IMG/VR virus record: IMGVR_UViG_3300022198_004783
Coordinates: 1 to 26,622 of that record
DNA: 26,622 nt
From: a virus
Reading direction: 5' to 3' (one strand)
The notes beneath the pieces are model-generated. The model made no database searches. It worked only from the letters and a program-made list of their open reading frames with translations, and was not told the origin of the DNA. Positions within the stretch are counted from its first letter, which is position 1; every line of letters starts with the position of its first letter. A program made the translations under genes and the position numbers. Of this stretch, positions 3,464-25,418 are shown piece after piece.

Positions 3464-3492
3464 ACTTTTAGAATAAAAAGAAAAGTAGAATA

Positions 3493-4206
3493 ATGTCTGG
3501 CTTGGTTTACCTAGGAAGAATTGCTGGTCCTGGTGAGGACGTATTTCCTACTACCGGTCCACATCTTGACGTGCGAGTGACACCACAATTTGGTGCACAG
3601 AAGGGCAAGAAGATAGATCCTCAAACTGCACGAAGCTTACTCCAAAATGTGCTTGTGGGAGACAAGCGCACTCCCTTGGTGCAGCAACAGGAAGATCAGT
3701 GGAAGTGGAATTTTCCGATCACATCTCCATACGGTCAGCGCTCTGCACCAACCAAAGGTGCCTCTACTTATCACCAAGGACTAGATCTTGGTATCGGTCC
3801 AGAAAACATCGTATATAAAGGTACGGGATCTTTTACCCCAGGCAAGGGGTATGGAACACTAGCAACTACTGATGCACAAGGTAATCCTTACGAGATTCAG
3901 TTTTTACATACAAAACCGGCAGTCGCAAGCTCAGTTGAATCTTCAACGGTCACCCCTGCTACCTCAAGTGATACGTCTTCTAGAACCGAGGATATTCTCA
4001 AGGCGTTTCTCTATGGTGCACAAACAAGAGAAGAAAAAAAACCAGAAAAGACATTCCAACAAGAATTGAAAGAACAATTGATTGGAGGTTTAATTTCGCA
4101 ATCGATGAATCCAATGGGGTTCTTGTCTTCCTATAGTTCTTCCGATCCTTTTCTTGGTGGCAGAGCAGCGGCAACATCTGATTACCTAGGCGGCCTTTTG
4201 GGTTGA
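3493..4206 (+). CDS. M23 (LytM/lysostaphin-type) endopeptidase, apparently circularly permuted
   Basis: 237 aa. The central part carries the M23 signature H-x3-D: YHQGLDLG with H94 and D98, after the usual PITSPYGQR lead-in, and a later FLHT (H139). The motif that normally ends an M23 domain (GPHLHFEV...DP) instead appears near the N-terminus as TTGPHLDVRV (H24, D26) followed by KKIDP (to residue 43), with Asp replacing the second His. The order therefore looks circularly permuted. Residues about 145-237 are a Ser/Thr-rich linker, a charged helix and a Gly/Ser tail. M23 enzymes cut peptidoglycan cross-bridges using zinc; within a virion operon this is most likely an entry enzyme. First gene after the terminator. 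Start at ATG 3493 with only weak A/G-rich upstream sequence. Confidence 0.75.
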   Translation: MSGLVYLGRIAGPGEDVFPTTGPHLDVRVTPQFGAQKGKKIDPQTARSLLQNVLVGDKRTPLVQQQEDQWKWNFPITSPYGQRSAPTKGASTYHQGLDLGIGPENIVYKGTGSFTPGKGYGTLATTDAQGNPYEIQFLHTKPAVASSVESSTVTPATSSDTSSRTEDILKAFLYGAQTREEKKPEKTFQQELKEQLIGGLISQSMNPMGFLSSYSSSDPFLGGRAAATSDYLGGLLG

Positions 4207-9812: not shown

Positions 9813-10178
9813 ATGTTCAACTGTGAACAGGAACCCCTCGCCCTGCTCATTGAATTAACTCCAAAGTTAGCAAAGAAACGATACAGACAATCTATCTACG
9901 AAGCCTGGGACCATAAATGCGGTTATTGCGGAGATCCGGCCACAAGTTTGGATCATATTGTTCCAAGGTTTAAATCTGGTTCCAGCAATAGAAGTAACTT
10001 GCTCCCATGTTGTCGTCGTTGTAATCAAAACAAAGCAAGTAACAAGATGGAAGACTGGTACCAACAGCAAACATTTTTTAGTCAAGCAAGATTAGATCGG
10101 ATTTCGGCGTGGATCAAACAAGAAATGATAGATTTAGTAGATCAAGAAAAAACAGTTAATTACAAGCTGGCGGGATAA
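9813..10178 (+). CDS. HNH endonuclease
   Basis: 121 aa. Classical HNH core with a zinc-binding frame: CGYCG (C36, C39), SLDHIVPRF (D47, H48), SNRSNLLPC (N62), CCRRCN (C67, C70) and a following Lys. HNH enzymes nick or cut DNA with one metal ion. Free-standing HNH genes in phages act as homing or recombination enzymes, or in packaging beside terminase; terminase is not nearby here, so homing or mobility is the simpler reading. Its stop overlaps the next ATG (TAATG), and together with the HTH gene it sits like an insert inside the virion operon. Confidence 0.85.
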   Translation: MFNCEQEPLALLIELTPKLAKKRYRQSIYEAWDHKCGYCGDPATSLDHIVPRFKSGSSNRSNLLPCCRRCNQNKASNKMEDWYQQQTFFSQARLDRISAWIKQEMIDLVDQEKTVNYKLAG

Positions 10179-13315: not shown

Positions 13316-13329
13316 AAAGTATGTATGAT
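13300..13329 (+). promoter_or_regulatory. possible promoter of the GH24 lysozyme
   Basis: TGGACA (13300-13305, one mismatch from TTGACA), 18-nt spacer, TATGAT (13324-13329, one mismatch from TATAAT). The predicted transcription start falls in the palindrome at 13331-13352, which would then be an operator or leader hairpin. Confidence 0.42.
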
Positions 13330-13330
13330 T

Positions 13331-13352
13331 GAGAGTAATAATAGATACTCTC
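13331..13352 (+). promoter_or_regulatory. palindrome directly before the lysozyme ATG
   Basis: Perfect 7-bp inverted repeat GAGAGTA (13331-13337) and TACTCTC (13346-13352) with an 8-nt AT-rich loop, abutting ATG 13353. No RBS lies between them. It is a candidate operator, because it overlaps the predicted start site, or an RNA hairpin controlling translation. A comparable palindrome precedes the other lysin gene at 22511-22533. Confidence 0.45.
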
Positions 13353-14018
13353 ATGTCGGATCTTTCGCGTGCTGTTAATCTGATTCGTAAATACGAAGGG
13401 TTTAACGAAAAAGCATATCCAGATCCGTACTCAGGTGGAGAACCATACACCATCGGGTTTGGGACTCAGTTCTATCCCGATGGTTCTCCCGTCAAGCAAG
13501 GTCAGTGCTGCAGCCAAGAGAAGGCACTGGAGTATTTATTTCACGAAGTCAACGTTATTGAGTCCCAGCTTCTGCGTTTAAACTTAGGACTTGATGACTG
13601 TATGCGCCAAGCTCTTGTTTCTTTTATCCATTCAATTGGATGGGAACCTTTCCTTTACAGCCGTATGATTGACTGTCTTGAAACTGAAGACCTGTCAGGA
13701 GCAACAGAAGAAATTGGCCGTTGGATTTTTGATCAAGACCATAAAGTCATTGGTAGCCTGCTTGATCGTCGTCGAGAAGAGGTGAATCTATTCCTGCAGG
13801 AGGTTGACGCAAACCCCTGGTCCTCTACAGAAGTCCTCTTGACGGCATTCAGGAATTACAGCGCTGCTTCTCATGAAGTCCGGGCAATCCGAAAACTGGA
13901 AGAACAGATCAATCCTTATATTCTGTCAGAGTTTGCTAACGACTTTAAGATTGACGAAAATCCCTGGGTTGATTTTAGAGATGAGAGTCTAGATTCTTTG
14001 TTCAAAGTGTACGATTAG
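13353..14018 (+). CDS. GH24 lysozyme (endolysin-type muramidase)
   Basis: 221 aa (MSDLSRAVNLIRKYEGFNEK). Catalytic residues fit the phage T4-type pattern: E15 in KYEGF, D24 in AYPDPYS and T33 in YTIGFGT, with a 3-residue insertion between D and T compared with T4 lysozyme. The GFGTQFYPDGSPV lobe and the AxxSFxxxxG helix region (ALVSFIHSIGWEPF) follow. The last ~70 residues are a helical extension of unknown role. ATG 13353 is preferred to TTG 13329, because the region between holds the palindrome. It cleaves the glycan backbone of peptidoglycan. It lacks a signal peptide, so release would need a holin. Second of four wall hydrolases in the window if counted by lysis relevance. Confidence 0.85.
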   Translation: MSDLSRAVNLIRKYEGFNEKAYPDPYSGGEPYTIGFGTQFYPDGSPVKQGQCCSQEKALEYLFHEVNVIESQLLRLNLGLDDCMRQALVSFIHSIGWEPFLYSRMIDCLETEDLSGATEEIGRWIFDQDHKVIGSLLDRRREEVNLFLQEVDANPWSSTEVLLTAFRNYSAASHEVRAIRKLEEQINPYILSEFANDFKIDENPWVDFRDESLDSLFKVYD

Positions 14019-14036
14019 AATAGTTGTAGTAAAAGC

Positions 14037-14339
14037 ATGCAGAGCGGAATGGAGCGATCAAGTGAGCCTAGAGAGTTTGAGCTTCCTCTGGAGTTGCAGT
14101 TTGCCATGCGCAAAGCTGAGCTACAAGCCTCTGAAATGACTTGGGACCAGCTTTACTCTGCTCTTCTGAACCTATATCACCAAAGGATGATGGAGTGGCA
14201 CGCCATCAAGGATATCATGGCATCAGAAAATATTGAGATCGATTGGGATCATCCAACCGATCTCGAATTAGCAGAGCTTGCCGCCGCTTTCGCATACGAC
14301 GACGAGGACGATGATGAAGATGATCTTCAGACCGTCTGA
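14037..14339 (+). CDS. nblA: NblA-like phycobilisome degradation protein
   Basis: 100 aa. Residues 14-62 resemble NblA (Ycf18): FELPLELQFAMRKAE, then M-x3-Q and ALLNLYHQRMM, matching the L-x-L-E-x-x-F-x-x-R ... M-x3-Q ... L-x-x-L-Y-x-Q-M-M pattern. NblA is a small helical adaptor that binds phycobiliproteins and brings them to Clp protease, dismantling the light-harvesting antenna. An extension of about 35 residues ends in an Asp/Glu run (YDDEDDDEDD), which ordinary ~60-aa NblA proteins lack. ATG 14037 is taken as the start; ATG 14049 is also possible. Convergent with DUF3310, overlapping it by 13 nt. The similarity is by eye, so an unrelated small helical protein cannot be excluded. Confidence 0.6.
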   Translation: MQSGMERSSEPREFELPLELQFAMRKAELQASEMTWDQLYSALLNLYHQRMMEWHAIKDIMASENIEIDWDHPTDLELAELAAAFAYDDEDDDEDDLQTV

Positions 14340-14596
14340 GACTCGTCAAGTTGAATAAGACGATCGAGGTAGAACTGTGCCTTCTTCAGTGATTCTGTCC
14401 CGCCTTTATGCCTCTCACGCCACAAATACTTCAGGATATTCCCTTTTAGGAATCCGCGATACTCTTCGTTGGTTAGGGCTGACTCGATGGCTTCGATGCA
14501 TTCGATTCCGCCGTCATTGTAATGAGAAGGGTGGTTGACCGCATCCTCTTGGATCACAGGAGGTTCTTCTTTAGTGGCCCAGGGAACAGGGCACAC
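14327..14596 (-). CDS. DUF3310 protein
   Basis: The core VNHPSHYNDGGIECIEAIES, followed by FLKGNILKYLWRERHKGGTE and a LKKAQFYLDRLI helix, is the DUF3310 pattern, a ~60-aa phage domain of uncertain function sometimes linked to nucleotide metabolism. The frame stays open up to ATG 14818, but 14623-14818 is also covered, in another frame, by a better-looking gene, and the translation there is Gly-rich and shadow-like. GTG 14596 is my chosen start; GTG 14557 is an alternative. The stretch just upstream (EEVSDCPGGVCPVPW) still looks protein-like, so a frameshift fusion with the upstream gene is possible. Confidence 0.75.
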   Translation of the reverse strand: MCPVPWATKEEPPVIQEDAVNHPSHYNDGGIECIEAIESALTNEEYRGFLKGNILKYLWRERHKGGTESLKKAQFYLDRLIQLDESQTV

Positions 14597-14622
14597 ACCG
14601 CCTGGGCAGTCACTTACTTCCT

Positions 14623-14970
14623 CTACCGGCGCAAACCACGACGTTTGAGAGACTCCTCCATCATCTCCTCGTCCGGTCCCTCCAATTCCAAGACCAGTGC
14701 TTTGGGCTTCGGTGATGCTCCCATTGCCAGCCCCTCCTCCATCGAGGGAATGTAACCCGTCATTCCAGGACGTGCTCCCTCGAGATTCAACGGATTCCTT
14801 TCGAGCCCCTGTTCGCATGCCACTAACCCGCGATTGTACATATCATATAGTGGCACATCATTCTCTTCATTTGCAATAGGTGCGCCAAATGTTTCTTCGT
14901 CAAGACACCGACACTTGACTTCGTCTTGGACAAAAGAATCTAAAAAACCGGCGGCGGAGTTGTGATACAT
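14623..14970 (-). CDS. acidic protein of unknown function upstream of DUF3310
   Basis: 115 aa (MYHNSAAGFLDSFVQDEVKC), acidic, with CRC near residue 21, a GARPGMTGYIPSMEEG middle and a Lys/Arg-rich end (EESLKRRGLRR). No known motif. The only good RBS, AAGGAG (14990-14995), is 20 nt before the ATG, so initiation may be unusual. The DUF3310 frame opens in the -1 frame relative to this gene. It reads away from the rightward gene at 15009. Confidence 0.55.
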   Translation of the reverse strand: MYHNSAAGFLDSFVQDEVKCRCLDEETFGAPIANEENDVPLYDMYNRGLVACEQGLERNPLNLEGARPGMTGYIPSMEEGLAMGASPKPKALVLELEGPDEEMMEESLKRRGLRR

Positions 14971-18238: not shown

Positions 18239-20167
18239 GTGGCAAACCGTAGAATCACGGAATTTCCAGCCATTAATGGGGGCGATATTATCGATCAGGA
18301 CCTGCTTACGCTGGTCCATGTTTTCGAGGTCGACCCCACTCTGCGCAATAAAAAAATAACTTTTACAGAGTTCAGGGAATATCTTAATGTTTATTATGCT
18401 CCCATAAGTGGAGCAACATTCAGCGGAAACGTTACCATCTCTGGAGACCTGACGGTTACAGGCTCTAGTACCTTCAATACTCTTACATCATCTGGACTAA
18501 GTACGTTTAGTGGTATTGTTGTTCAAAACAATGCGATTGTTAGTGGAACAGTCAGTGGAACAACAATTACTGGAACCAACGTTCAAGGCACTAACATCAA
18601 CGCTATAACAACAACTGTTACAACTGCGACAGGCACAAACGCAAACTTTGTTTCTGGTAACTTCAGTACCCAAGTTTCGGGCGCTACGATTACCGGTGGT
18701 CAAGTCAGATCGCCATCTGGCGTTTTTACAAACCTCAGCGGTGCAACAATTACTGGAACGACTGTTGCGGCAACAACGGGTTCTTTTCAGGTTCTTAGCA
18801 CGCCACTTCTTGAAGTTAGCGGGAATCTTTCGGTTGCCAGTGGTTTAACAGTCACTGGCCTTGCTCAGTTTGGCAACGGTGTTCAGGCCACTGGAACTTT
18901 TTCCGGAACAACAATCACAGGAACAACAGGTGCATTTTCAACGGTATCTGGTGTTTCTGGCGTTTTCACAACGCGTCTTTCTGGTGAAACAATTACAGGT
19001 GATACAGCTTTAATTTCAAATACAACAGGTGTTTCCGGAACGTTTACCACCAGGATTTCAGGTGCAACCGTTACTGGCAATACTGGAGCTTTTGGTAATG
19101 TTAGCGGTATTTCTGGTGTTTTTACACAGCTTTTATCTGGTGCTCTCATCACTGGTGATACGGCCCAGCTGACAACACTCACTGGTGTCTCCGGAACATT
19201 CACCAATGTTTCTGGTACTACCGTTACTGGTGATACAGTTGCTGCGACAATTGTTTCCGGCGTCTCCGGCGTATTTAACAGCTTTTTATCTGCAACCACA
19301 ATTACAGGGGCGTCAGGCATCTTCACAAACCTGACGAGCACCTCTGGTACTTTTGCAACGCAGGTCTCAGGTGCCACGGTTACCGGTAATATCGGACAAT
19401 TTACGTCGTTGACCGGGGCAACCGGAACATTTACCACACGTGTTTCCGGTCTGCTTGTTACAGGTGACACCGGAAGTTTCACGAACCTCACTGGCATCGC
19501 TGGTGTCTTCACCACCAGTATTTCTGGTGCCACAATTACCGGCAATACAATTCAAGGAACTTCCGGAGTCTTCACCCATCTTAGTGGCACGACTTTTACT
19601 GGGACAACAGTTAATGCATCGACTGGTGTTTTTCAGACACTTGCAGCATTAAACCTTGCTTTTACGAACACCGTTGTATCAGGTAATTTTAGCGTCCTTG
19701 GCTCCAGTACTTTTACTTCTGGTGTTCAGGTAACAGGCACGCTTAGTGGCACCACGATTACCGGAACAACTGTCAGTGCAACGACGGGTTCTTTTGTTTC
19801 TTTAACCGGAACAACGACAACCGGTGTAACAGCTACGTTTACTACCGGATCTTTTACTGAGTTAACAGGGACTACAACAAGTGGTGTAACGGCAACCTTT
19901 ACGACGGGTAGCTTTACATCATTAACCGGAACCACAACGACGGGTGTCACAGCAAAGTTTACGAGTGGTTCGTTTACTTCTCTTACTGGCACTACAACAA
20001 CAGGTGTAACGGCTACGTTTACAACCGGTGCCTTTGTAAATATCACAGGCAGCACACTTAATGTGACAACACCATCTGGCCCAACGCCTGCAATTGTATG
20101 TTCTGGTGTTGTATCCGGTGGTACTGGTGGATTTATTATCCAAGGGCCGTTAGTGATCTTGCCTTAA
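18239..20167 (+). CDS. repeat-rich tail fibre protein
   Basis: 642 aa from GTG (MANRRITEFPAINGGDIIDQ). Residues 1-60 are an N-terminal attachment-like domain. The rest is Ser/Thr/Gly/Val repeats: a 26-residue unit (SGVFTTRISGATVTGNT type) repeated eight times at 18953-19558, and a 20-residue unit (SLTGTTTTGVTATFTTGSFT) repeated four times at 19799-20038. The short C-terminus (GGTGGFIIQGPLVILP) has no chaperone domain. Such repeats form trimeric beta-structured shafts in phage fibres. Likely the shaft of a receptor-binding fibre, working with the next gene. Confidence 0.8.
   Translation: MANRRITEFPAINGGDIIDQDLLTLVHVFEVDPTLRNKKITFTEFREYLNVYYAPISGATFSGNVTISGDLTVTGSSTFNTLTSSGLSTFSGIVVQNNAIVSGTVSGTTITGTNVQGTNINAITTTVTTATGTNANFVSGNFSTQVSGATITGGQVRSPSGVFTNLSGATITGTTVAATTGSFQVLSTPLLEVSGNLSVASGLTVTGLAQFGNGVQATGTFSGTTITGTTGAFSTVSGVSGVFTTRLSGETITGDTALISNTTGVSGTFTTRISGATVTGNTGAFGNVSGISGVFTQLLSGALITGDTAQLTTLTGVSGTFTNVSGTTVTGDTVAATIVSGVSGVFNSFLSATTITGASGIFTNLTSTSGTFATQVSGATVTGNIGQFTSLTGATGTFTTRVSGLLVTGDTGSFTNLTGIAGVFTTSISGATITGNTIQGTSGVFTHLSGTTFTGTTVNASTGVFQTLAALNLAFTNTVVSGNFSVLGSSTFTSGVQVTGTLSGTTITGTTVSATTGSFVSLTGTTTTGVTATFTTGSFTELTGTTTSGVTATFTTGSFTSLTGTTTTGVTAKFTSGSFTSLTGTTTTGVTATFTTGAFVNITGSTLNVTTPSGPTPAIVCSGVVSGGTGGFIIQGPLVILP
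18953..19558 (+). repeat. eight tandem ~78-nt coding repeats (26 aa)
   Basis: Unit starts at 18953, 19031, 19109, 19187, 19262, 19340, 19418 and 19496: spacing 78 nt, with one unit of 75 and a shorter last one (63). Each codes S-G-[TV]-F-T-x3-[SL]-S-G-x-T-x-T-G-[DN]-T. The DNA copies have diverged while the protein pattern is kept, which points to selection on fold and not to a recent expansion. Confidence 0.85.
19799..20038 (+). repeat. four tandem 60-nt coding repeats (20 aa)
   Basis: Exact 60-nt period, four units starting at 19799, 19859, 19919 and 19979, coding SLTGTTTTGVTATFTTGSFT-like units. They are much closer to each other than the 78-nt units. The same 20-residue unit appears again in the next gene (20416-20535). 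Confidence 0.9.
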
Positions 20168-20202
20168 TTCTTCGGTTAAAATAAACAAAAAGAGACAACA
20201 AA

Positions 20203-21894
20203 ATGGCTTACGGCGAAATTAAAGTTGATACTATCACTTTTACTGATGGCGGGATTGATAAAAGTGTTGCTATTTCTGGTTTAGTCCAGAATCCGACGTT
20301 TAGTGGGAATATCACTGTTACTGGTACTATCTCTGGAAACCTTGTTCAAGGACAAACTGTTTCTGGTGTAACTGTTACTGGAACAGCCGCAGCGTTTACC
20401 ACTGGAACATTCATTTCGCTTACAGGCACAACAATTCAAGGCACAACGGCAACCTATACAACTGGTTCATTTACTTCGCTGACAGGAACAACCACTACTG
20501 GCACAACAGCAAAATTTGCTTCAGGTGTATACACTACGCAAATTTCTGGTGCAACCATTACTGGTAATTCAGCTGCATTTACCACGGTAACAGGTGGAAC
20601 CGCAACAATTACATCAGGTGTTTTTGCTTCTGGTACTGCAGCGGCACCATCTGTTTCTGTTGGCACCACAGATAACGGCATTTATTCACCCGGCACAGAC
20701 CAAGTAGCCATCTCGACTAATGGCACCCAGCGCATCAGTATCGGGTCCGATGGTGACATCAATGTTGATAGCGGCGGTGTGTTCTATGACGCCTCGACAA
20801 ACCGCTTGGCGGTGGGCACTACGAGCCCAAGTGTTACATTTGAAGTAAAAACGACATCTACAACAGCTCACACAGTTGCGGCTTTTGGAAGTGGGCCAAT
20901 ATCCGGCGGTTTAGAAGTAACAACAAACGGAAATCTTGATTGGGGCTTCAATGCTCTCAACGCTAGAAACCTAACCTTTAGCACTAACCAGCTAGAACGC
21001 CTGCGCATCACCTCAACCGGCCAGCTAAGTCACATTGGCGGTGGCTCTTCAGGTTCACCTGCAGTTGGCTTTAACGGCAGCGCACCTAGTAACAGCCTCG
21101 TTATTGATTCGACAGGCAAAGTAGGCTTGGGGACTTCTGCGCCTGATGAATTACTGCATATTAAAGGTGATATTGTAGAGTTCAAGGGCACAAATACCAA
21201 CCAGATTGCAGATACGGCAGGAACAGAACAGGTATTTAAGTTTGGCATTGAAGGGCAAAAGAATAGTGTCTACGGCCCTGCCGGATCAATTATTTTCAGG
21301 CAGGATGCTAGTACGTGGTCTTCTGTTGATCAATACAATAAGCCGACTCGTATTGAATTCTGCACACAAGACGTGTCTAGCTCGGATACATCAGAAACAC
21401 CGCGATTGGTTATAAGCCAAGACGGCAACGTTGGGATCGGAACAACAAGCCCTGATTATCTTTTTGATTGCCAAAAAACTGGCTCACAACTAATTAGGAG
21501 TCGAACGAATGACACAGGCTCGGGAGCGAGTACCGGCGGATTTCTTGGAGAATACCTTGGAGGAGGTGGTGGGACAAATACGCAAATCAGCATAGCCGCC
21601 GGTAATAATTATGGCTTTTTGTCTACACTTACCAACTCCCCGCTGCTTATTGGGACAAATGGTACGGAGAAATTAAGAATTGACACGTCTGGGCGAGTAT
21701 TGATAGGCACAAGTAGCAATAGTGGCGGCGCATTACTTCAAGTGAATGACAATCGTATTAGGATTGCAACTGCAAAAACACCTGCATCCGCGACAGACAC
21801 TGGAACCGCTGGTGAGATCTGCTGGGACGCCAACTACGTCTACGTTTGCACCGCCACCAACACTTGGAAGCGCTCTGCGCTGTCTACTTGGTAA
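20203..21894 (+). CDS. tail fibre / receptor-binding protein
   Basis: 563 aa (MAYGEIKVDTITFTDGGIDK), a start I associate with cyanophage fibres. Residues about 25-150 carry the same 20-aa repeat as the previous gene. The rest has four [EQP]-[KR]-L-R-I-x-x-x-G modules (QRISIGSDG, ERLRITSTG, PRLVISQDG, EKLRIDTSG), often followed by VGIGTTSP, typical of marine phage fibre shafts. Long segments between them vary and would form loops or knobs. It ends in a Trp/Cys-containing cap (GEICWDANYVYVCTATNTWK). Likely the distal, host-recognising part of the appendage. Confidence 0.8.
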   Translation: MAYGEIKVDTITFTDGGIDKSVAISGLVQNPTFSGNITVTGTISGNLVQGQTVSGVTVTGTAAAFTTGTFISLTGTTIQGTTATYTTGSFTSLTGTTTTGTTAKFASGVYTTQISGATITGNSAAFTTVTGGTATITSGVFASGTAAAPSVSVGTTDNGIYSPGTDQVAISTNGTQRISIGSDGDINVDSGGVFYDASTNRLAVGTTSPSVTFEVKTTSTTAHTVAAFGSGPISGGLEVTTNGNLDWGFNALNARNLTFSTNQLERLRITSTGQLSHIGGGSSGSPAVGFNGSAPSNSLVIDSTGKVGLGTSAPDELLHIKGDIVEFKGTNTNQIADTAGTEQVFKFGIEGQKNSVYGPAGSIIFRQDASTWSSVDQYNKPTRIEFCTQDVSSSDTSETPRLVISQDGNVGIGTTSPDYLFDCQKTGSQLIRSRTNDTGSGASTGGFLGEYLGGGGGTNTQISIAAGNNYGFLSTLTNSPLLIGTNGTEKLRIDTSGRVLIGTSSNSGGALLQVNDNRIRIATAKTPASATDTGTAGEICWDANYVYVCTATNTWKRSALSTW

Positions 21895-22541: not shown

Positions 22542-23552
22542 ATGTCAATCAAACTCACAGACGCCGCAAGGTTTTTTAACGAAGAACCGCATCAAATCGA
22601 TGCGTTGGAGTGGCTTCAGGCTCAGCTCACTGCTGATGTCCTGGATCTTTTTGCTGAGAAATATCGAAACAAACCAAGACCTGCTTTAGCTATAGACAAC
22701 ACTTGGGACGGTGTTCTTGCAGCAGCTAAAACAGCTGGTGCTAAATGGCCTGAATGTGTTGCGGCACAGTGGGCACTCGAATCGGGATGGGGTCAACACA
22801 CATCTGGTAAGAATAATTACTTTGGATTGAAAGGATCTGGTTCTACGGTCAGCACCCAAGAATTCATCAATGGTCAATGGGTCACGATCAAGGCTGGATT
22901 CCTTGATTTTCCTGATTTACAAACATGTGCTTGCTACCTCGTTGATCGCTGGTATAAAGACTTTGGGCGCTTCAAAGGTGTTAATAGAGCAACCAGCAGG
23001 AATGAATGCGCTCGACTTTTGGTTAAGGAAAGTTACGCAACTGACCCTGACTATGCAACAAAATTAATTCAGATCATGGATCGTCAACTTCAAAACATTG
23101 GAGAGAAAGAAGATCCCAACCCACACAACAATAACTTGAACCCTTGGAGCCCATTCACCTATAAGATCACACCTAATATCACATATGGTGAGATTTGTTT
23201 AAACCAAGAAAAGCGAAGGTTTACCAAGCAATATCAATGCGACACAGCAAAAGAACTATGTTTATTCCTAGAAAAAGTCCGTAAACAGTTTGGTAACAAG
23301 CCAATCATTATCACTAGCGGTTCTCGTCCAGAACCCATCAATACTCAAGTAAACGGCGCAAAGAACAGTGAACATACCTACAACGCACCGTCTAAAGGCG
23401 CGATTGATTTTTATATCCAGGGTGTTGATATCTATAAGGTGCAAGACTGGTGCGATAAACATTGGCCTTATTCGTTAGGATATGGCGCACCCAAGGGATT
23501 CACGCATCTTGGCATTAGGGAAGGAAAACCACGCGTTCGCTGGGTCTACTGA
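22542..23552 (+). CDS. two-domain endolysin: GH73 glucosaminidase plus M15 peptidase
   Basis: 336 aa. Residues about 50-185 are a FlgJ/GH73-type glucosaminidase: VAAQWALESGWGQH (catalytic E80), then NNYFGLKG (91-98) and the ATDPDYATKLIQIM helix. Residues about 205-336 are a D-Ala-D-Ala carboxypeptidase-like M15 domain: IIITSGSRPEP, SEHTYNAPSKGAIDFY (zinc ligands H and D, with an insertion between them) and FTHLGIR. The first domain cuts glycan strands and the second cuts peptide stems. There is no signal peptide, so release depends on a holin; the holin-like gene is close by at 23716-23877 on the other strand. Preceded by a palindrome and no clear RBS. Confidence 0.87.
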   Translation: MSIKLTDAARFFNEEPHQIDALEWLQAQLTADVLDLFAEKYRNKPRPALAIDNTWDGVLAAAKTAGAKWPECVAAQWALESGWGQHTSGKNNYFGLKGSGSTVSTQEFINGQWVTIKAGFLDFPDLQTCACYLVDRWYKDFGRFKGVNRATSRNECARLLVKESYATDPDYATKLIQIMDRQLQNIGEKEDPNPHNNNLNPWSPFTYKITPNITYGEICLNQEKRRFTKQYQCDTAKELCLFLEKVRKQFGNKPIIITSGSRPEPINTQVNGAKNSEHTYNAPSKGAIDFYIQGVDIYKVQDWCDKHWPYSLGYGAPKGFTHLGIREGKPRVRWVY

Positions 23553-25379: not shown

Positions 25380-25418
25380 TATTGTTGCGTTTTCTTTCTT
25401 TTATTCTAATTCTGAAAA

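Follow-up and report, generated by a model that had tools for sequence, protein, structure and literature searches.

What does a small gene lying between a lysozyme gene and a DUF3310 gene contribute to the phages that carry it, and is it a viral form of NblA, as an initial annotation of this DNA proposed? NblA is a small cyanobacterial protein that sets off the breakdown of the light-harvesting antenna; it is described as bridging phycobiliproteins and ClpC (PMC4103541, PMC7966870). Phage-encoded NblA is already known; what appears to be new here is a branch with a fixed place in the genome, a predicted third helix and, in most members, a tip resembling that of single-stranded DNA-binding protein (SSB). 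The window, by which we mean the whole stretch of DNA analysed, comprises 26,622 nucleotides of a virus record 26.6 kb in length.

A virus-only branch of the NblA family

The gene and its parts are placed as follows.

14037–14339, + strand: nblA-like gene with the start given in the initial annotation, an open reading frame of 100 codons (PF04485 match; profile–profile comparison)
14049–14339, + strand: the same gene from its likelier start at Met5, 96 codons (start-codon conservation)
14079–14222, + strand: NblA domain, residues 15–62, made up of helix 18–33, a turn and helix 36–63 (Pfam; AlphaFold2)
14223–14297, + strand: conserved extension, residues 63–87, with a predicted third helix at 75–87 (conservation; AlphaFold2)
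14298–14324, + strand: acidic linker DDEDDDEDD, residues 88–96, predicted to be disordered (sequence; pLDDT below 50 from residue 93)
14325–14336, + strand: C-terminal tip LQTV, in place of the PF of 91 of 100 distinct relatives

The reading frame at 14037–14339 encodes MQSGMERSSEPREFELPLELQFAMRKAELQASEMTWDQLYSALLNLYHQRMMEWHAIKDIMASENIEIDWDHPTDLELAELAAAFAYDDEDDDEDDLQTV. Relatives run to hundreds, with at least 461 in IMG/VR, where 461 of 503 candidate stretches encode one; the best 80 of these 461 were kept, and later counts rest on the matches listed. An N-terminal fragment (L101) is counted among the 100 distinct relatives used for tails and left out of the 99 used elsewhere. Since so many of the candidate stretches encode relatives and substitutions between them are mainly synonymous (L087 against L092, for example, has a core dN of 0.009 and a dS of 2.3), the gene is, on the evidence of its substitutions, under purifying selection and a chance reading frame is ruled out. 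Its true start is probably 14049, four codons after the listed one, because the Met5 position is a start codon in all 99 distinct relatives (ATG in 97, GTG in two) and an in-frame ATG lies upstream of it in only 76 of them.

NblA is the sole Pfam family above its curated cut-off for this protein. An NblA pattern had been recognised by eye at residues 14–62 and a search with the NblA profile suggested; that search returns a significant match over residues 15–62 (26.4 bits, cut-off 25, E 9.3e-6), and profile–profile comparison with decoys agrees. All 21 members of the relatives' alignment match PF04485 at E ≤ 10, with scores under the cut-off in S-EIV1 (L001, 16.3 bits), L041 (18.6), L087 (18.4), L110 (24.1) and L113 (22.6) and above it in L012 (26.3). 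Because the Pfam margin is thin, homology was tested a second time by comparing profiles, one built from 49 phage sequences of the branch and the other from 29 NblAs picked by hand, of which 27 are cyanobacterial and two come from the phages Ma-LMM01 and PaV-LD; L270 (internal stop), L258 (below cut-off) and near-duplicates were omitted from the latter. The alignment found by hhalign has a probability of 96.8 and a score of 53.9 and is colinear over 61 columns, as against scores of at most 16.6 for 40 column-shuffled versions of the reference set and 11.1 for its reversal. With a profile of 21 phage sequences, the NblA chain 1ojh came top among all solved chains (E 0.0028). By these comparisons the protein is a distant homologue of NblA, which confirms the original observation; the homology spans residues 5–65, and the phage sequences form a divergent, virus-only branch of the family. 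That it is instead an unrelated helical phage protein, its likeness due to convergence of short amphipathic helices, is highly improbable: the Pfam score is just 1.4 bits above the cut-off and under it for several relatives, but the profile score lies far above all the shuffled and reversed decoys, the alignment is colinear along its whole length and every one of the 21 members matches the same family.

The AlphaFold2 monomer prediction (mean pLDDT 78.1, pTM 0.50) has helices at 18–33, 36–63 and 75–87, the first two forming a helix-turn-helix with block pLDDT of 79–92, and confidence drops below 50 for residues 93–100. The initial annotation had tied its reading to an NblA match and an NblA-like hairpin; the match is found and a helix-turn-helix is predicted. 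Structure libraries, on the other hand, listed no NblA, since Foldseek searches of the PDB and BFVD and a search with VIA-align, using two models, returned no NblA chain or meaningful match, small helical folds being hard to find in this way. All 100 distinct relatives have the hairpin, then the conserved extension, then the acidic linker, and residues E64, D71, P73, T74, E77 and L81 of the extension are invariant in 99 of 99. Branch-specific invariant residues also occur within the core, such as KAE (26–28) and LYH.R..EW (46–54).

The two-helix core is shared, colinear over the 61 columns, with cyanobacterial NblA (PF04485; solved as 1ojh, 3cs5, 2q8v and 2qdo), after which the phage branch adds the third helix and the acidic tail. 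The canonical cyanobacterial NblAs compared have 54–72 residues and no acidic tail. The positions of NblA Leu7 and Phe13 are kept in all 99 branch members, of which 87 have Glu and the other 12 Gln at the position of Glu10. In contrast, the Gln11 position is Leu or Met in 99 of 99, against Gln in 28 of the 29 reference NblAs, and none of the 99 has a basic residue at the Lys53 position, against 23 of 29; with six references lacking a basic residue there, Lys53 is not universal even within NblA. At the Leu51 position all 99 have Ile or Leu. We take Leu51 and Lys53 of Anabaena NblA to be residues of its phycobiliprotein-binding motif. Given the changes at Gln11 and Lys53, both NblA-type binding surfaces may have changed in the S-EIV1 branch; in NblA, an N-terminal motif is described as binding ClpC and a C-terminal one as binding phycobiliproteins (PMC4103541).

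The NblAs of Ma-LMM01 and PaV-LD are likewise phage-encoded and have the same core, but they are 79 and 54 residues long, lack the acidic tail, lie in different gene neighbourhoods and score 51.8 and 46.8 bits against PF04485, compared with 26.4 for the window protein. Distant NblA homologues in marine cyanopodoviruses, S-TIM5 and S-SCSM1 are attributed to Nadel et al. 2019 (via PMC9602691), and it is by this description, as distant homologues in phages of picocyanobacteria, that they can be likened to the S-EIV1 branch.

Among PHROGs there was no significant family for the branch; a hit of the S-EIV1 protein to phrog_15004, which would make it an SSB, was set aside as not significant (E 0.12). 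A tblastn search of phages with Nostoc NblA gave nothing useful and also missed the known NblAs of Ma-LMM01 and PaV-LD, so its silence says little about the family. When bacterial and archaeal genomes (one per species) were scanned with the family alignment, none of 64 pattern matches was confirmed, and at that sensitivity no host or prophage copy of the branch was thus found, the scope of this statement leaving aside the S-EIV1-like prophage described in S. elongatus UTEX 3055 (PMC9239245). Of 244 cyanobacterial genomes, 92 were found to carry the cyanobacterial NblA itself, with scores above the cut-off in 90.

Gene neighbourhood and an upstream promoter-like element

Among isolates, the closest is Synechococcus phage S-EIV1, which comes from a High Arctic lake; its copy (70% identity over 70 residues) is annotated as a hypothetical protein and is flanked by the same genes as in the window. 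A table of Nishimura et al. 2017 (PMC5332604) lists hli and ptoX, and not nblA, for the S-EIV1 group G238, and no mention of an S-EIV1 nblA was found in the literature covered, which does not extend to Nadel et al. 2019 or Chenard et al. 2015. The surroundings of the gene are these.

13329–14018, + strand: phage lysozyme gene directly upstream (PF00959; upstream in 91 of 91 relatives)
14015–14022, + strand: –10-like promoter element TTAGAATA, directly upstream of the nblA-like gene (conservation of TA[AG]AAT)
14327–14818, – strand: convergent DUF3310 gene in tail-to-tail overlap, its stop lying within the last nblA codons (opposite strand downstream in 90 of 91 relatives)

These neighbour counts refer to the 91 distinct relatives with enough flank among the matches listed, 86 of which also have a dCTP deaminase gene downstream. 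Approached from the lysozyme side, the nblA-like gene adjoins lysozyme at 79 of 80 loci, the remaining one being too short to tell. With neighbours this stable, the gene seems to be a fixed component of S-EIV1-like cyanophage genomes and not a scattered acquisition.

The upstream motif TA[AG]AAT is present in 99 of 99 distinct relatives, in 65 of them equally far from the first ATG. The window has six copies of TTARAATA against 2.27 expected, a number reached in three of 100 shuffles, and four of the six (3468–3475, 14015–14022, 20176–20183 and, on the – strand, 25402–25409) sit 22–30 nt ahead of reading frames starting at 3493, 14037, 20203 and 25379 (–). The looser pattern T[TA]A[AG]AATA, counted over the window and S-EIV1, has seven of 18 matches 15–40 nt before the start of a reading frame, compared with 11% of background positions, and in S-EIV1 the element also precedes two genes, at record positions 768 and 48012. 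From its positions we infer that TTARAATA is a candidate late promoter common to S-EIV1-like phages; as an argument from position it was rejected as proof of late transcription.

The C-terminal tip and its likeness to SSB

The initial annotation drew attention to the acidic extension, and DDEDDDEDD at 88–96 is indeed absent from canonical NblAs, but the extension is not purely acidic, since a predicted helix (75–87) precedes the run. The acidic character also proved to be family-wide, tails of 17–29 residues holding 6–14 acidic ones in all 100 distinct relatives while linker length and sequence vary; the most conserved part of the tail is nonetheless its Pro-Phe end, which is invisible in the window copy. 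This end, with Phe as the terminal residue, is found in 91 of 100 distinct relatives among the matches listed, and the nine exceptions are the window protein (LQTV), one MQVA and seven proteins of a second branch (CFL, CLL, SFL, SFAV, SAV and PVG). Pro-Phe stays although its codons vary (CCC, CCG or CCT; TTC or TTT; stop TGA, TAG or TAA), and the proteins of a third, deeper branch end in NLQPF or TLLPF even though they differ at H48, W54, P73 and T74, which are invariant elsewhere. The idea that overlap with the convergent gene forces the Pro-Phe was rejected, as overlap in the S-EIV1 branch is confined to the stop codon and the codons themselves vary.

In the window the relatives' CCN TTY is replaced by ACC GTC. 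Four of four records have the identical LQTV end, on which ground an assembly error was rejected. As the convergent DUF3310 gene overlaps the tip codons of nblA, its own end has changed too: the ends of nblA (+) and DUF3310 (–) overlap at 14326–14339 inside an inverted repeat, TCAGAC-C-GTCTGA, which the tip change completes. Because relatives have only a short quasi-palindrome where the window has the full repeat, the tip may have been lost in this lineage through a templated (palindrome-correcting) mutation. Whether Pro-Phe was lost or replaced, it would be dispensable there, or else its partner would itself have changed.

The SSB C-terminal tip, which in E. coli is DDDIPF, is built in this way too, as a disordered run of acidic residues with Pro-Phe at its end; a basic pocket of DnaG is described as recognising the carboxylate of the terminal Phe together with the acidic residues, and comparable pockets are described for PriA, RecO, exonuclease I and Pol III chi (PMC5872125). 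The nblA-like protein differs from SSB in having no SSB domain (at E ≤ 1 the window protein does not match PF00436, and it is not classed as an SSB), and the window copy, ending in LQTV, lacks the SSB-type end as well. The SSB of S-EIV1 itself (PF00436, 34.7 bits) ends in TDEPF. In all 16 records of the Pro-Phe type with both genes readable (S-EIV1; G245–G249, G253 and G258; G266, G270, G271 and G273; G285–G288), both tips are Pro-Phe, some of these records being near-duplicates, as the like-ending SSBs of G245 and G266 illustrate. In G250, the sole second-branch genome with both genes, neither tip is Pro-Phe; its SSB end, CFQLF, is probably a read-through, as L517, a copy with 97% identity, has DDNEHF at its end, and is not Pro-Phe either way. 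SSB ends were also seen to differ between branches, L517 having DDNEHF and L518 DDDNQPF.

Whole-record scans, with records read in pieces, counted reading frames of at least 60 codons that end in Pro-Phe: nblA and SSB only in G249 (327 reading frames), these and one other in G247 (319) and in S-EIV1 (269), these and two others in G245 (332), and none in G250 (213). A 145-residue frame in G245 (L500:6050–6487, – strand) has a third SSB-tip-like end, TLEEVPF, and no Pfam match. Across 2704 distinct reading frames from virus loci, 82 end in Pro-Phe with at least three acidic residues in the preceding ten, 81 of them NblA and one SSB, in a set of loci centred on nblA and hence no fair sample of genomes. 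Of 12 SSBs in six cyanobacterial genomes, the five long-tailed ones, from five genomes, end in Pro-Phe (DEVPF, DEVPF, DDIPF, DEIPF and PYPF) and the other seven do not. We regard the relation between the nblA and SSB tips as a resemblance with some co-variation, the contrast coming from a single genome, and not as proof of shared binding.

Possible functions of the core and the tail

We favour, with moderate confidence, an NblA-type role in antenna breakdown. Phage NblAs are described as expressed during infection, those from metagenomes as active when expressed, and phycobilin loss as following their expression in cyanobacteria (all PMC9602691). The S-EIV1 branch is remote and its Lys53 position never basic, so phycobilisome stripping by its members is an extrapolation from these known cases. 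In such a scheme the protein would be made late, alongside structural and lysis genes, and would form an NblA-like helical dimer bringing phycobilisome proteins to ClpC, the breakdown of the antenna freeing amino acids and dimming the antenna before lysis. The acidic tail may possibly contact Clp or phycobiliproteins, and the C-terminus could be a docking peptide of the SSB-tip type with which the phage has extended the adaptor, a suggestion made more weakly than the antenna role; with a changed target, the added helix and tip would make up a second docking site. A core gene, still annotated as "hypothetical", in a cyanophage lineage that is widespread would thereby acquire a functional hypothesis, in which antenna breakdown would be a fixed part of the lineage's late programme and not the work of an occasionally acquired gene. 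Should the tip dock as that of SSB does, it would be a natural tool for redirecting ClpC and, to our knowledge, the first case in which an adaptor for antenna degradation is linked to proteins of DNA maintenance.

The adaptor might alternatively have been retargeted, its NblA core recruiting ClpC and its acidic Pro-Phe tail bringing in DNA-maintenance cargo in place of the antenna, namely those host (or phage) replication and repair factors that have an SSB-tip pocket. Selection on the tip at the protein level, its agreement with the phage SSB in all 16 records of the Pro-Phe type and with long-tailed host SSBs in five of five genomes, the dominance of NblA and SSB among acidic Pro-Phe frames in the nblA-centred (and so unfair) sample, the non-basic Lys53 position, and pockets known to hold a C-terminal Phe with acidic residues (PMC5872125) are all consistent with this. 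Short terminal motifs easily arise, however, nine of 100 distinct members, the window's included, lack Pro-Phe, and the one non-Pro-Phe genome compared, G250, has an atypical SSB end too; we therefore think retargeting unlikely. A two-headed adaptor, in which the core engages ClpC and the acidic linker carries an SSB-tip mimic that captures host DNA replication or repair proteins or feeds them to Clp, is equally doubtful, and this holds jointly with a variant in which the tail keeps the adaptor at the centre of phage replication; if it were true, the window lineage would represent a naturally occurring mutant that has lost the tip.

Slightly less probable again is that the tail serves longevity, a disordered acidic segment offering the Clp unfoldase a poor grip, so that the adaptor is recycled, and the tip having no partner. 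The 6–14 acidic residues kept in all 100 members, although the linker varies in length and sequence, would fit, as would the codegradation of NblA by Clp that Baier et al. reportedly described in 2014, for an adaptor would otherwise be consumed with the phycobilisome; the conserved Pro-Phe end and the conserved extension are, however, left unexplained. Loosening of the antenna without ClpC, the hairpin mimicking phycobiliprotein helices and prying rods apart, we judge quite improbable: it was suggested for NblA generally by Dines et al. (via PMC4103541), and the hairpin is the best-predicted part of the AlphaFold2 model, but nothing in it is particular to the S-EIV1 branch.

Elsewhere in the window, an HNH endonuclease gene (9813–10178; PF01844) lies amid structural genes, and the syntenic gene of S-EIV1 is annotated as an HNH nuclease. 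A single protein encoded at 22542–23552 combines glucosaminidase and peptidase M15 domains and represents a second cell-wall enzyme beside the lysozyme. Two adjoining long proteins (18239–20167 and 20203–21894), rich by eye in repeats of the SGTTITGT type, are probably tail fibres.
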